NCBI GenBank assembly: GCA_023703675.1
Contig: CP097974.1
Location: forward strand, 209,288-273,287
Source of the DNA: SAR86 cluster bacterium
Lineage (GTDB): Bacteria; Pseudomonadota; Gammaproteobacteria; Magnimaribacterales; AG-339-G14
Direction: 5' to 3'
Length of the DNA stretch: 64,000 nt
Shown here: positions 12,639 through 47,071 of the stretch, piece by piece
How the letters are laid out: each line of letters opens with the position of its first letter
Position numbering within the stretch: the first letter of the stretch is position 1
The notes under the pieces: generated by a model
The model's database searches: none
The model's input: only the letters and a program-made list of their open reading frames with translations
Told to the model about the DNA's origin: nothing
Program-made: the position numbers and the translations under genes

Positions 12639-12893
12639 ATGCCTAAAATTACCCAAGAAACTTTATTTGACGCAATATCGAAAGCGCTTGATGTTGATTC
12701 TTCGAAAGTTAATTTGGATTCAAGTATTGATACTATCGAAGAATGGGACTCTTTGGGAAGTTTAAGTATTCTTACCTCACTAGATGAGTTATCTGATGGC
12801 GAAACGTCAAAAATAGAAGACATTTCCAGTGCTGCCTCATGCAAAGATATTATAGATTTACTGAAAGTTCATAACCTATATGATCCAAGCTAA
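12639..12893 (+). CDS. Acyl carrier protein (module A)
   Basis: An 84-residue carrier protein distinct from housekeeping AcpP. The phosphopantetheine attachment site is Ser38 in EEWDSLG. The predicted four-helix layout and acidic composition are typical. It starts directly after the PhyH gene and its last 14 bases overlap the following KASIII gene, so the carrier and synthase are translationally coupled. It is the likely carrier of the chain made by that synthase. Confidence 0.85.
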   Translation: MPKITQETLFDAISKALDVDSSKVNLDSSIDTIEEWDSLGSLSILTSLDELSDGETSKIEDISSAASCKDIIDLLKVHNLYDPS

Positions 12894-13839
12894 AATTGAA
12901 GGTATTGAGTACCATCTAGCTTCAAAAAAAGAAAATCTAAAAAATTTAAAAGAAAACAACCCTGATTGGGATGTAGAAAAAATATTTGAAAAAGTCGGTG
13001 TAAAGGATAGATTTATCTCTTCTGAGCATGAAACCTCTCTGAGTCTTGGCATTAATGCTGCAAAAAAGTTTTCTCATAAAATATTAAAAGAGGTTGATTG
13101 TTGTATCTTTGTCACTCAAACTCCAGATTTTCTCTTACCAAACAACGCAAGCATTGCGCAAGATAAGCTTAATTTGAGTAATGAAATTTCTGCATTTGAT
13201 ATAAATATGGGCTGCTCTGGTTTTGTTTATGCTCTTTCGGTGGCTTCTTCTTTTTTAGAATCTAATATTCATTCTAAAATTTTAATTATTTGCGGCGAAA
13301 CTTATACAAAATATCTGAACGAACATGATCGTTCGACCCAACCTATATTTAGCGATGGTGCGTCAGCTACTATATTGTCGAAAGGTAAGACTTCAAAAAT
13401 TGGACCGTTTTTATTTGGAACAGATGGATCTGGATATGATAAGTTGATTTTTAAAAACAGCGGGGCGTCTAAAGAATTTAAAAATGAAAACAAAAGTATT
13501 TTTATGGACGGACAATCGGTATTGCTTTTTACAATGGATAAGATTCCCAATTTGATTTTAGAATTAATGGAAACAAATAATTATTCTATTGATGACATAG
13601 ATTTCTTTTTATTCCATCAAGCCAGTAACGTGGTTTTAGATAACATCCAAAGAAAGTTAAAAATTCCTTCCGAAAAGCTGCCAAGAAATGCTTCTAAATT
13701 TGGAAATACAACTTCATCAACAATTCCAATACTAATCAAAGATTTAGTAAATTCAAAAAAATTGAGGAGAAAAATGAGAATAGTTTGTTGTGGATTTGGG
13801 GTTGGACTTTCTTATGGAGCGACAATTGTCAATTATTAA
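12880..13839 (+). CDS. 3-oxoacyl-ACP synthase III family protein (module A)
   Basis: A FabH-type ketosynthase of 319 residues that condenses an acyl starter with malonyl-ACP. The full catalytic triad is present: Cys112 in NMGCSGF, His246 in FLFHQAS and Asn276 in FGNTTSS. Because it is paired with its own ACP and SDR in a polysaccharide locus, it more likely makes a short 3-oxoacyl group for sugar decoration than membrane fatty acids. A second, clearly diverged copy lies at 31548. It overlaps the ACP gene upstream and the SDR reading frame downstream. Confidence 0.88.
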   Translation: MIQAKIEGIEYHLASKKENLKNLKENNPDWDVEKIFEKVGVKDRFISSEHETSLSLGINAAKKFSHKILKEVDCCIFVTQTPDFLLPNNASIAQDKLNLSNEISAFDINMGCSGFVYALSVASSFLESNIHSKILIICGETYTKYLNEHDRSTQPIFSDGASATILSKGKTSKIGPFLFGTDGSGYDKLIFKNSGASKEFKNENKSIFMDGQSVLLFTMDKIPNLILELMETNNYSIDDIDFFLFHQASNVVLDNIQRKLKIPSEKLPRNASKFGNTTSSTIPILIKDLVNSKKLRRKMRIVCCGFGVGLSYGATIVNY

Positions 13840-14533
13840 AAATAAACAATTTATTATTATAGGCGCCAATTCAGGGCTAGCTAATTTTTCTGTAAAAAAG
13901 TTTTCTCGTAGAAATCTTGTTTTTGGAACCTATAATAAATCCAGGCCGAAGGAAACAAAGGATTTTCATCTTTTAAAAAAATTAGATTTGTCAAAAAAAA
14001 AACAAATAGAAGCTTTCATTAATAAAATTTCGAAAGATTTGTCCAAAATAGTACTGATTAATTTTGGAGTTTTTAATCAAGATAATCTTCTGGTAAATGT
14101 TGAGGAGGAAGAATTATTAAATTCTTTTCAAATAAATGTATTTTCAAATTTTTATCTCAATAAAATGCTTATTCCCATTATGATAAAAAATAATTGGGGC
14201 AGGATTATCCATTTATCGTCTCAAAGAGCTTTTTTGGGAGCTAAAGGAGCATCTGTATATGGGGCTTCAAAGTCTTCGCTAATCGGTTTAAGCAATAATA
14301 TTGCATCAGAATATGCGAGATTTGGCATTACTTCCAATATAATAAATTTGGGATATTTTGAATCTACTCTATTTTATAAATTAGACAAATCATTGCAGAA
14401 GGAATATTTAAATTCAATTCCTGGAAAAAAATTGGGAACTGCTGAAGATATTTTTAACGTTTTAGAAATGATAGTTAAAAATCCTTTTATGAACGGCTCT
14501 ATAATTGATTTGCATGGCGGGGCAAAAATATGA
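13814..14533 (+). CDS. SDR-family oxidoreductase, FabG-like (module A)
   Basis: A short-chain dehydrogenase of about 239 residues. The nucleotide-binding GANSGLA motif is near residue 17, the active-site serine lies in IHLSSQ and the catalytic YGASK (YxxxK) follows. The C-terminal HGG is usual for FabG-like proteins. I place the start at ATG 13814, which begins MERQLSII; a GTG at 13790 is in frame but lies deeper in the KASIII gene. Following an ACP and KASIII, it probably reduces the 3-oxoacyl-ACP to a 3-hydroxyacyl-ACP. It overlaps the wzz gene by 4 bases (ATGA). Confidence 0.82.
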   Translation: MERQLSIIKNKQFIIIGANSGLANFSVKKFSRRNLVFGTYNKSRPKETKDFHLLKKLDLSKKKQIEAFINKISKDLSKIVLINFGVFNQDNLLVNVEEEELLNSFQINVFSNFYLNKMLIPIMIKNNWGRIIHLSSQRAFLGAKGASVYGASKSSLIGLSNNIASEYARFGITSNIINLGYFESTLFYKLDKSLQKEYLNSIPGKKLGTAEDIFNVLEMIVKNPFMNGSIIDLHGGAKI

Positions 14534-29289: not shown

Positions 29290-29577
29290 ATGAAACACAT
29301 AAATAAGATGAATGTTGAACAAGCAAAAAAAATAGTTATTGAGGTAATAAACGAAAACTTAGAAAAAGGTGAGGCCAATGAAGATTCAAAATTACTTGAG
29401 GAAGACCTTTTAGATTCTATGACACTTGTTGAAGTTTGCCTTTCACTTGAAGATGTAGCTGATAACCATGGATTTGAATTTGATTGGACATCGGAAACAG
29501 CTTTGTCAAAGTCAAAAAGCATGTTTAGAAGTGTGACTTCTCTTGCAGAAGAATTTTCCTCACAATCAGAGAATTAA
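29290..29577 (+). CDS. Acyl carrier protein-like (module B, first)
   Basis: A 95-residue carrier protein with the phosphopantetheine Ser43 in LLDSMTLVE. It is less like housekeeping AcpP than usual, having an FEFDWTSETALSKSKSMF segment after the site. It starts at ATG 29290; a second ATG six codons in is possible. It is the first gene after the 98-base gap, and the next gene's start is within or just after its end, so it leads the module B operon (ACP, SDR, ligase, KASIII, ACP). Confidence 0.75.
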   Translation: MKHINKMNVEQAKKIVIEVINENLEKGEANEDSKLLEEDLLDSMTLVEVCLSLEDVADNHGFEFDWTSETALSKSKSMFRSVTSLAEEFSSQSEN

Positions 29578-29578
29578 C

Positions 29579-30256
29579 TTGATCGTTATTACTGGTGCAA
29601 ATAGAGGGTTGGGAAAAGCCATCGCTCAACGTCTTGTTGACAAAGGAAACAATGTTTTGGCTTTAGTAAGATCTAAAGAAAACATTGAATTTGAGAGTAT
29701 CGAATGTGATGTGAGAGATTACTCATCAGTTAAAAACGCAGCGAGACGTATTAAAAATATGAAAAAAAGTATTTCTTGTTTCATAAATGTAGCAGGAGTT
29801 GCTTCAATGAATATGGCTGTGACTACTGATGAGTCAACAGTTCAAAAACTTATTCAAACCAATCTCGTAGGTACAATATATTGCTGTCAATTATTTGGTC
29901 CTATTTTAATGAGACAGAAGCAAGGAAGCTTTATTAATTTTTCAACTATAGCTGTTCCATTAGCTCTTAAAGGAGAATCTATTTATGTTGCCTCAAAATC
30001 AGGGGTTGAGGCATTTTCAAGAACTTTTGCAAGAGAAATGTCAGATTTTAATATTAGAGTTAATTGTATTGCTCCTGGACCCATTAATACTGATTTATTG
30101 AAAGGAATATCAGAAGGACAGATAAAAAAAATAACAACGCAACAAGTTATTCAAAAACAATTTGAAAAATCTGACGTATGTGACTTAGTAGAGCTACTTA
30201 TGGATGCAAAAGCTTCTTGTCTTAGTGGACAGATTTTAAATGTTGGGGGTGTTTAA
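29579..30256 (+). CDS. SDR-family oxidoreductase, FabG-like (module B)
   Basis: A classical SDR of about 225 residues. The TGANRGLGKA cofactor motif is at the N-terminus, NVAGVASMN (NAG-like) is central, and the catalytic Ser and YVASK motif (FSTIA then YVASKSG) follow. The C-terminal LSGQILNVGG is the standard FabG-like ending. I favour the TTG at 29579, two bases after the ACP stop; a TTG at 29543 overlapping the ACP gene is the other option. It likely reduces a 3-oxoacyl group on an ACP. The next gene begins without an ordinary start codon (see that entry). Confidence 0.82.
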   Translation: MIVITGANRGLGKAIAQRLVDKGNNVLALVRSKENIEFESIECDVRDYSSVKNAARRIKNMKKSISCFINVAGVASMNMAVTTDESTVQKLIQTNLVGTIYCCQLFGPILMRQKQGSFINFSTIAVPLALKGESIYVASKSGVEAFSRTFAREMSDFNIRVNCIAPGPINTDLLKGISEGQIKKITTQQVIQKQFEKSDVCDLVELLMDAKASCLSGQILNVGGV

Positions 30257-30261
30257 TAGAT

Positions 30262-31551
30262 ATTCTTTCTAAATTAAAAGAGAGATGGATTGATATTGAA
30301 CATCCATTTCTCATTCATCCTGAGGGGAGCTTATATTTCAGTGAAATTACCAATCAGACTCCTCTTAATTTATCGTCTATTAAAGAGGGGGATGTTGTTG
30401 CTCTTATCGGCGATTTTGATCCAAAATCTATCTTAACTCTTTTAGAACTAATAGAAAAAAATGTTATTTTGGTTCCTTTGACTGTCGAAACTAGAGAACA
30501 ACATGAGTATTTTTTTGATGCAGCTTTAGTAGATGTTGTAATTGATAAAAATAATGTCCAAAGAATTATTCATGAGAATAGACATGATTTAATAGATTTG
30601 TTGAGGCAAAAGAAACATTCTGGATTAATTTTATTCTCCACAGGAACTACAGGAAGGCCTAAAGCTATTTTGCATGATCTTACTTTATTCATGCGAAGAT
30701 TTGAAACTCCTCGCCCAACCTTAAAAACTTTGAATTTTCTTCTCTTTGATCACATTGGTGGTTTAAATACTCTATTACACACCCTTTATAACAAGGGTAC
30801 CGTTGTAGCCCCTCACTCCAGAAATGTAAAAGACATTTTAAAAATCTGCAGAGACTTTGATATTGAAGTTTTACCAACAACGCCAACTTTTCTGAGATTG
30901 ATGTTGATGAGCGGTCTAATTCCAAAAAATGTTTCATCATCTTTAAAGGTAATAACTTACGGAACGGAAAGAATGGATCAATCAACTCTGAATAAACTCT
31001 GTGAGCTTTTACCTGATATTGACTTCAGACAGACTTTTGGAATGTCTGAGCTTGGAATTGTTAGAGCTAAAAGCAAAAGTAGAAAAAGTTTGTTTATGAA
31101 AATTGGCGGAGAAGGAGTTGAAACTAGAATTAACAATAACGTATTGGAGATAAAATCTGAAACCAGGATGCTAGGTTACCTGAATGCAGAAAGCCCTTTT
31201 GATAAGGATGGTTGGTATAACACAAATGACATTGTTGAAGAAAAAGACGGTTTTTATAAAGTTGTCGGGAGAACTAATGAAGTAATCAATGTAGGCGGTT
31301 TGAAGTTCATGGCTTCTGAAGTTGAAAGGGTTGCTTTGAAGTTTGATGGAATAGAATTAGTTAAAGTTGAAGGAAAAAAAAATCCTATAACTGGCGAGCA
31401 TGTAGAGATCATCGTTAAGCCAGTTGAAGGAGAAAAAATACTTAAGAATGAGTTGAAGAATTTTTTGAATGAAAACCTACCTAAACATATGATGCCTAAA
31501 AGAATAAGCATTTCTGACGTTTCAATAGGACATAGATTTAAAAGATTATGA
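30262..31551 (+). CDS. AMP-forming acyl ligase (ANL superfamily), start uncertain
   Basis: An adenylate-forming ligase that would activate a carboxylic acid and load CoA or an ACP. The ATP-binding STGTTGRPKA motif is near base 30638, FGMSELG near 31037 and GRTNEVINVGG near 31267. The coding frame is open upstream to the stop at 30223, and the upstream part reads like a normal family N-terminus (GDVVALIGDF, VILVPLT). Yet no ATG, GTG or TTG occurs there before TTG 30469. I give ATT 30262 as a provisional start; ATA 30256, or a -1 frameshift from the SDR gene, are alternatives. The C-terminal catalytic-Lys motif is atypical (IGHRFKRL). It overlaps the KASIII gene by 4 bases. Confidence 0.72.
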   Translation: MLSKLKERWIDIEHPFLIHPEGSLYFSEITNQTPLNLSSIKEGDVVALIGDFDPKSILTLLELIEKNVILVPLTVETREQHEYFFDAALVDVVIDKNNVQRIIHENRHDLIDLLRQKKHSGLILFSTGTTGRPKAILHDLTLFMRRFETPRPTLKTLNFLLFDHIGGLNTLLHTLYNKGTVVAPHSRNVKDILKICRDFDIEVLPTTPTFLRLMLMSGLIPKNVSSSLKVITYGTERMDQSTLNKLCELLPDIDFRQTFGMSELGIVRAKSKSRKSLFMKIGGEGVETRINNNVLEIKSETRMLGYLNAESPFDKDGWYNTNDIVEEKDGFYKVVGRTNEVINVGGLKFMASEVERVALKFDGIELVKVEGKKNPITGEHVEIIVKPVEGEKILKNELKNFLNENLPKHMMPKRISISDVSIGHRFKRL

Positions 31552-32504
31552 AAATTACAAAAAATATTTTATTACTTCCGAAGAATAAAATAGATATCTA
31601 CGAAGAACTACATAATGCCGGAAAAGACAAGTTAGAGGTAAAGAAGACAATTAGAAATACTGGTATAAAATCAGTCCATAAAGTTGATTCTCAAACATTA
31701 AGTGATTTTGTGTTTGAAGGTTTATCAAACATTAAAAAAGACTATCATGATTTTTTTGAAAATGTAGATTCTGTTATTGTTGTATCTCAGAGTTTTGATC
31801 ATCGGATTCCATCTTTGAGTACTAGAATCCAAGATAAATTTAACATTCCTGAAAAAGCTTTTTGCATAGATATTATGGATGGATGTTCCGGTTATATTAA
31901 ATCTTTAGGTTTAACTAGAATGCTCCATCAAATTGGGTGCAAAAAATTTTTAGTAATTTCTGGAGATCTGAACTCTAAAATGACTACCAACTCAGAAATT
32001 GGGACAAAGATACTATTTGGAGATGGTATTTCAGTTTCCATAATTGAGCCCGATGAAACTGAATCTGAAATCAGATTGTTCAACAGAGGAGATAACGAAA
32101 ATATCATTAATTGTTCAATGGACTCCAACAAAATGAATATGAATGGGTTTGAAGTATTTAGATTTACAAAAAACGAAATACCAAGGCTGATAAATAATTA
32201 TTTATCAGAGTCCGGGAAATCTATAAACGATTTTGACCTCCTTGCTCTTCATCAAGCCAGTAAGCTAGTAGTGTCTACAATATGTAATTCAGTGGGTTTT
32301 AAAAATAACCTTTGCCAAGATTTTTCTTGTGATGAAATTGGTAATCTGGGTGCAGGCAGTATAGGCGCTTGGATTTCGCAAATTAATGATCTTACAAAAA
32401 TGGATTCTTTAAAAATGCTTGCTGTTGGTTTTGGTTCTGGATTATCATGGGGATTGATATCTATTTCATTAGATGTGTGCGTGAATGAGGTAATCTATGT
32501 CTAA
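31548..32504 (+). CDS. 3-oxoacyl-ACP synthase III family protein (module B)
   Basis: A second FabH-type ketosynthase, 318 residues, with the whole triad: Cys113 in MDGCSGY, His235 in LALHQAS and Asn266 in EIGNLGAGS. It is clearly diverged from the copy at 12880 outside these motifs, so it probably uses a different starter or makes a different product. The ATG overlaps the ligase stop (ATGA) and the 3' end overlaps the next ACP gene by 8 bases, showing tight coupling. The adjacent AMP ligase suggests that the starter may be a free acid activated by that enzyme. Confidence 0.86.
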   Translation: MKITKNILLLPKNKIDIYEELHNAGKDKLEVKKTIRNTGIKSVHKVDSQTLSDFVFEGLSNIKKDYHDFFENVDSVIVVSQSFDHRIPSLSTRIQDKFNIPEKAFCIDIMDGCSGYIKSLGLTRMLHQIGCKKFLVISGDLNSKMTTNSEIGTKILFGDGISVSIIEPDETESEIRLFNRGDNENIINCSMDSNKMNMNGFEVFRFTKNEIPRLINNYLSESGKSINDFDLLALHQASKLVVSTICNSVGFKNNLCQDFSCDEIGNLGAGSIGAWISQINDLTKMDSLKMLAVGFGSGLSWGLISISLDVCVNEVIYV

Positions 32505-37427: not shown

Positions 37428-37895
37428 ATGACAAAAAAAGAGGTTTTAATTGATTATGGGAAGAATATTGATGCTAGCTTGGATAATTTATTGGAAGTGG
37501 GCTATGCAAAATTACCAAATTTGATTGCAGCCTTGGGTTGCGTTCAAACAGAGCGACTAAAAGAATTTTTGAAAATAAAAGAGAATTTAACTAATGAGTG
37601 GGATCCTTTTTTTCAGGACAGAGATATTGGTTTTGTAAAAGCAATTAATGGGAACAATGCCAATCACTGGCTAAACGCAAAAATTTTAAATTTCAGAAAA
37701 GATCGTGATGAATTTCTAAAAGTTACGCATGATAATAACGTTATGACTCGTCCTATTTGGAATCTAATGTCTAAACTTCCAATGTTTCAAGATTGCCAAA
37801 CCGATGGTCTTGAAAACTCTTTTTGGTTAGAGGATCGAGTGGTAAATATACCTTCCAGTGTCCCAGACGCAGCCTTAACAAAACTGAAAAAATAA
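37428..37895 (+). pseudogene. LegC-type aminotransferase, C-terminal remnant
   Basis: The 155-residue frame matches only the C-terminal third of LegC-like PLP aminotransferases: GYAKLPNLIAALG (the usual GYNxRMPNLNAALG) at about residues 44-56, HWLNAKIL, VMTRPIWNLMSKLPMF and the terminal VVNIPSSV. About two thirds of a normal protein of roughly 380 residues is absent, including the PLP-binding Lys. The first 40 residues do not resemble the family. It is very unlikely to be active. It lies just before the dehydratase gene with which LegC is normally paired, so it is a leftover of a larger cluster. Confidence 0.8.
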
Positions 37896-46531: not shown

Positions 46532-47071
46532 ATGACTCAACCAAGAAGGGCATTTGAAAAGAAAAATAAGCAGCCCATAAACCAATTCATTAAAGCCGAA
46601 AAAGTTAGACTTATCTCACAAACTGGAGAGCAGTTAGGAGTTGTCGAACTTAAAGAAGCTTTAGCAAAGGCAAAAGATCAAGAACTAGATTTAGTCCAAA
46701 TGAATAAAGACTCTGATACTCCGGTTTGCAAAATGATGGACTATGGTAAGCACCTATTCGATCAAAAAAAACAAAAGGCAGCTTCAAAAAAGAAAACAAA
46801 AAAAACTCAACTCAAGGAAATTAAATTCAGACCAGGAACGGATGAAAATGATTATCAAATTAAGATGAGAAATATTATTAAATTTTTAAATGATGGTGAT
46901 AAAACCAAAATAACAATGAGATTTAGAGGAAGAGAATTAGCGCACAAAGAAATAGGTTTGAATCTATTGAAGAGAGTTGAATCAGATTTAGTTGATATTG
47001 CCAATGTTGAACAAGAACCAATTTCTGAAGGGAGACAGTTTGTAATGCTTTTGAGCCCAAATAGGAAATAA
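46532..47071 (+). CDS. infC: Translation initiation factor IF-3
   Basis: IF3 binds the 30S subunit and checks start codons. The 179-residue protein matches the family: IxAxxVRLIxxxGEQLG near residue 30, [17 protein letters not shown] at about 69-85, the linker, [15 protein letters not shown] at about 96 and [13 protein letters not shown]. Unlike E. coli, where infC starts on AUU for autoregulation, the start here is an ordinary ATG at 46532; an in-frame stop at 46526 rules out longer forms. It is followed 2 bases later by rpmI. Confidence 0.96.

Follow-up and report, generated by a model that had tools for sequence, protein, structure and literature searches.

The question that this locus raises is where translation of a ligase gene begins when no canonical start codon is found where its N-terminus should begin. 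The locus lies in a window of 64,000 nucleotides, the whole stretch of DNA that was analysed, at positions 209,288-273,287 of the single-contig genome of a SAR86 cluster bacterium (1,194,046 bases, 34.2% GC). The window shows the gene orders rpsA-ihfB-pyrF and thrS-infC-rplT-pheS-pheT-ihfA, which mark a gammaproteobacterium, and the junction between the ligase and the SDR gene upstream of it sits in a surface-polysaccharide island. The features considered at the junction, in window positions, are the following.

29290-29577, + strand: acyl carrier protein (ACP), first gene of the ACP-SDR-ligase core; start ATG 29290 or 29308, stop TAA 29575-29577.
29579-30256, + strand: SDR (FabG-like ketoreductase); start most likely TTG 29579, stop TAA 30254-30256.
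30235-30241, + strand: T TTA AAT heptamer in the SDR frame, a candidate -1 slippery site (rejected).
30245-30251, + strand: Shine-Dalgarno-like GGGGGTG, 4 nt before ATA 30256.
30256-30258, + strand: ATA, proposed ligase start codon, in a 1-nt overlap with the SDR stop (TAATA) and aligned to the starts of relatives.
30256-31551, + strand: AMP-forming acyl/aryl ligase (ANL family), 431 residues from the ATA; stop TGA 31549-31551.
30469-30471, + strand: TTG, first in-frame canonical start of the ligase, rejected as main start.
31548-32504, + strand: ketoacyl synthase III-like gene, whose ATG overlaps the ligase stop (ATGA); Pfam ACP_syn_III_C 4.7e-9.

Both domains of the ANL superfamily were detected in the ligase above their Pfam cut-offs, namely AMP-binding (PF00501, 60.6 bits, cut-off 29.9, 1.5e-16) and AMP-binding_C (PF13193, 26.2 bits, cut-off 24.5, 1.6e-5). 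In frame 1, the stop TAG 30223-30225 is followed by an open frame that runs from 30226 to the TGA whose last base is 31551, and there is no ATG, GTG or TTG before TTG 30469, which is codon 72 of the ligase. Given the codon usage of the host genome, the chance of such a run of 71 codons is about 4%. The SDR stop and the ATA have one base in common (30256), and an ATT occurs in the ligase frame at 30262, two codons 3' of the ATA. In residues 2-71 of the ligase, which precede TTG 30469, conservation among 42 ligases reaches at least 85% in 26 columns, 24 of which are matched by the window sequence; over the whole protein, 190 of the 197 conserved columns are matched and the frame is intact over 431 codons. 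Judged by this conservation, the N-terminal stretch ahead of TTG 30469 is real coding sequence, and no usable canonical start was found near the N-terminus that it encodes. The earlier note on this DNA had described the frame as open from 30226 with TTG 30469 as its first canonical start, at the cost of about 70 conserved residues; both statements are correct, all of its coordinates check, and the loss amounts to 71 residues.

A scan of bacterial genomes yielded 55 loci from several phyla with ligase relatives 46-74% identical to that of the window. The junction could be read in 54 of them, the remaining one (L057) being a partial ligase that was not readable there. The codon aligned with ATA 30256, or with an adjacent codon, is ATG in 44, GTG in 8 and TTG in 2 of these 54 relatives, and one of the two with TTG (L053) really has an ATG one codon upstream. 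Full-length relatives comprise 430-431 amino acids, with identities to the window ligase of up to 73%. Most of the 54 have a single base in common between ligase start and SDR stop (TRATG or TRGTG), the same geometry as the TAATA of the window. The ATA at 30256, already a candidate of the earlier note, is supported by this alignment with 54 canonical starts, and the comparison places the ancestral ligase start at 30256, with the window differing from TAATG by a single base. An ordinary ATG in related genomes had also been named beforehand as a sign of a sequence error. Such ATGs do occur, in relatives that are distant (about 74% identical at best), and at this distance the ancestral start can be identified, whereas an error in the window genome cannot be demonstrated.

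Closer comparisons were sought as well. A family search found no ligase in other genomes of the host family, and an order-wide search returned only two distant ligase relatives (46% and 35%), both with ATG. No second copy of the SDR/ligase junction was present in the viral contigs or phages searched. The ligase is carried by one family genome, and the codon is ATG, GTG or TTG in the distant relatives.

The sequence context of the ATA includes a strong Shine-Dalgarno (SD) element. GGGGGUG pairs with the genome's own 16S tail, GGATCACCTCCT, in a 7-bp duplex of -12.3 kcal/mol, which is stronger than the duplexes at 99.6% of host gene starts (top 0.4%). The GGGGGTG, which the earlier note had named as a possible SD before ATT 30262, has a gap of 4 nt to the ATA as against 10 nt to the ATT. 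The motif arises from SDR codons for a conserved VGGV and the SD is strong in the relatives too, so that it was not made for the ATA; we regard it as an aid to initiation that is a by-product of SDR coding, not specific to this codon. Across the host genome, the median SD pairing is -2.2 kcal/mol at gene starts, about that of random 20-mers and no stronger than the -2.4 kcal/mol at random positions, rough values in which first canonical codons were taken as gene starts, and the genome may rely little on SD pairing despite its ordinary anti-SD. An altered initiation machinery was considered and rejected: the 16S tail is ordinary, and there is one CAT tRNA with the three G-C anticodon-stem pairs of the initiator type.

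Based on the position of the ATA and its overlap with the SDR stop, we propose that ATA 30256 is probably the real ligase start, used by coupled re-initiation and giving the full-length 431-residue product at reduced yield. In the proposed scheme, a single G-to-A change would have converted an ATG (or similar) start within the 1-nt stop/start overlap into ATA. Ribosomes ending the SDR at TAA 30254 would stay on the mRNA, held by the adjacent GGGGGUG, and would re-initiate with fMet-tRNA on the AUA, producing full-length ligase in amounts that are a fraction of those of the SDR. The downstream ketoacyl synthase III-like gene, through its ATGA overlap, may be lowered in turn. What the sequence shows is where the start lies, the overlap, the SD match, the conserved N-terminus, the lack of a conserved frameshift site and the fixed near-cognate starts elsewhere in the family; actual initiation on the AUA, how efficient it is and whether regulation gains from it are inferences.

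The textbook gene with AUU, AUC and AUA starts is infC. In the host, infC (IF3) starts at an ordinary ATG (window position 46532), and an IF3-type autoregulation was discarded because of this ATG; the ligase also differs from infC in having no known IF3-type feedback logic. In Staphylococcus aureus, AUA starts with an extended SD have been reported for infC, ccpN and citZ, and an AUU start for cvfC1 (PMC13009471). With an extended SD, AUA/AUU starts of this species yielded about 10% of the AUG level in reporters when the medium was poor and, with rich medium, up to 30% for one AUA gene (PMC13009471). On the other hand, CUG reached 0.86% of AUG in an Escherichia coli reporter (PMC11497404) and AUU about 0.3% (PMC10666635), and such values of about 1% or less for near-cognates count against an AUA start. 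Like the S. aureus infC, ccpN and citZ genes, the ligase has the AUA at the true N-terminus of a normal gene with an extended SD just upstream. It differs from the AUA/AUU genes of S. aureus and E. coli in that its start lies in a 1-nt stop/start overlap, in a surface-sugar operon, and is known from one genome. Ribosomes that terminate at such overlaps re-initiate readily (PMC10666635; PMC2268962). Compared with known TAATG/ATGA termination-reinitiation coupling (PMC10666635), the overlap is the same single base, which is also ancestral in the relatives, whereas ATA takes the place of ATG or GTG as start.

A whole-genome census supplied a second case. Among 1152 gene-like ORFs screened for extended coding sequence ahead of a first canonical start, only two genes were convincing, the ligase and zapE, a number that is a lower bound, as the census is blind to lost starts soon followed by a canonical codon (about 16% of 40-codon runs lack one). 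The zapE gene, encoding an AFG1-like ATPase, lies outside the window at genome positions 1102586-1103638 (G000:C1, L120). It has no ATG, GTG or TTG start in any of the 35 family genomes carrying it, which belong to four genera (relatives L121-L154). The start position is CTG in three of them (g1, 7/7; g2, 7/7; g3, 6/6; together 20/20), and in two of these three it shares bases with the stop of the upstream gene (CTGA). The genomes of the remaining genus (g4, 15/15) have an ATA two codons earlier, in an ATAG or ATAA overlap with that stop. Among 34 sampled genomes of sister families, the same position holds ATG (f2) or TTG/ATG (f3). The first ATG, GTG or TTG of zapE lies beyond the Walker A motif in many family genomes, and starting at that codon would destroy the enzyme. 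CTG makes up only 4% of the leucine codons of the host genome, and the TG of CTGA is also constrained by the upstream stop.

The family thus appears to tolerate near-cognate starts, ATA included, at stop/start junctions, where they seem to be genuine and fixed; for the ligase ATA, the zapE pattern is supporting evidence but no proof. Both genes have no canonical start and have a CTG or ATA that overlaps, or lies beside, the upstream stop. They differ in that zapE is a core gene, lacks a canonical start family-wide and has no SD before its CTG (-0.3 kcal/mol), whereas the ligase lies in an accessory island of one family genome; what the two junctions share is therefore the overlap and not the SD. 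We tentatively hypothesize, at somewhat less than even confidence, that stop/start overlaps in this family, marine Gammaproteobacteria with small genomes, are sites of relaxed start-codon identity, that re-initiating ribosomes accept CUG and AUA, and that near-cognates have become fixed across genera (zapE) and keep arising in newly acquired operons (ligase).

The best-surviving alternative is a sequence or assembly error, in which the cell would have ATG (or GTG) at 30256 and the A would be a base-call or consensus error. All distant relatives are canonical at this codon, which fits an error, as does the fact that a second genome of the species carrying the ligase was not found. The quality of the assembly speaks against it. 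In a comparison with a congener over 350 kb, restricted to scored genes and comprising 310 orthologue pairs, no gene of the host genome was split, while the programmed frameshift of prfB was detected on the congener side as a positive control. In the host and the congener alike, zapE again emerged as the one convincing long protein without a canonical start, and this sole other case is a genuine family-wide feature; the remaining candidates of the comparison resemble short 5' extensions or, near an RNA gene, an artefact of the reversed strand. By our own estimate, zero nonsense errors in about 300 kb bound the substitution error rate only at about 2e-4. These comparisons indicate an assembly that is not visibly error-rich, with a loosely bounded substitution rate, and we regard a base error at 30256 as unlikely.

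A recent loss of function, in which an ATG-to-ATA mutation would have left little or no ligase synthesis, is judged about as unlikely, or slightly more so. Surface-sugar islands vary fast, and an aminotransferase remnant is present in the window (37428-37895), both of which would agree with decay. Against decay, the 431-codon frame of the ligase is intact with its 190 of 197 conserved columns, and the ATGA overlap between its stop and the next gene persists. Besides, an AUA with such an SD in a coupled overlap would be expected to keep some initiation.

A start at ATT 30262, also proposed beforehand, is improbable. Passages of PMC13009471 and PMC2268962 cite AUU as an established weak start of E. 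coli infC and pcnB, and the same GGGGGTG lies upstream of the ATT; the alignment, however, puts the ancestral start at the ATA, two codons before it, and a start at the ATT would widen the SD gap to 10 nt instead of 4 and lose the stop/start overlap. A -1 ribosomal slip on T TTA AAT, which would fuse SDR and ligase, is highly improbable: the heptamer is a perfect X-XXY-YYZ in the SDR frame at a point where the ligase frame is open, yet the junction comparison that the earlier note had called for found it in frame in 0/54 relatives, all with ordinary ligase starts. That note had itself cautioned that such heptamers are common by chance, and rightly so, with P of about 0.14 for a slippery heptamer within ten codons; local folding is also unremarkable (z -1.75). 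Equally remote is a shorter protein from TTG 30469, which is the first in-frame canonical start and a codon common in the host genome, but would lose the 26 conserved columns and has no SD (-0.1 kcal/mol).

The ATA start, if used as proposed, bears on annotation, as gene finders limited to ATG, GTG and TTG will miss the first 71 residues of the ligase and, in many family genomes, begin zapE only after its Walker A motif. AUA starts are already known (S. aureus ccpN and infC), and the ligase, with its probable AUA start in a coupled overlap, would add another. The family-wide switch of zapE to CUG/AUA is the more interesting result of the two. If confirmed, it would make coupled junctions with conserved CUG and AUA starts available as a natural set, with which it could be tested whether termination-reinitiation tolerates starts that de novo initiation rejects.

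As for the role of the ligase, the gene immediately before the SDR encodes an ACP homologue in nearly all relatives, and ACP-SDR-ligase forms a conserved core, while a ketoacyl synthase III-like gene follows the ligase in only a few of them. The SDR (Pfam adh_short, 5.9e-42) comprises 225 codons from TTG 29579, equal to the SDR ORFs of two relatives (L018 and L039). Its mechanically called ORF begins at TTG 29543 inside the ACP gene, and the conserved length favours TTG 29579, one base past the ACP stop. In the relatives examined, the next genes encode GNAT or PglD-like acyltransferases, followed in one case by a nucleotide-sugar dehydratase. These neighbours suggest a role of the module in making and loading the acyl group with which an amino sugar is N-acylated; to judge by its family and neighbours, the ligase is probably the enzyme that activates an acid and charges the module's ACP with it for N-acylation of a surface sugar. 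The fragment at 37428-37895 matches only positions 218-344 of 360 of a DegT/DnrJ/EryC1 aminotransferase profile, its last part, and is followed by an intact dehydratase-like gene; it is probably a remnant of a sugar-synthesis gene. A second acyl module, at window positions 12639-14533, holds ACP, ketoacyl synthase III and SDR genes in another order and without an AMP ligase.
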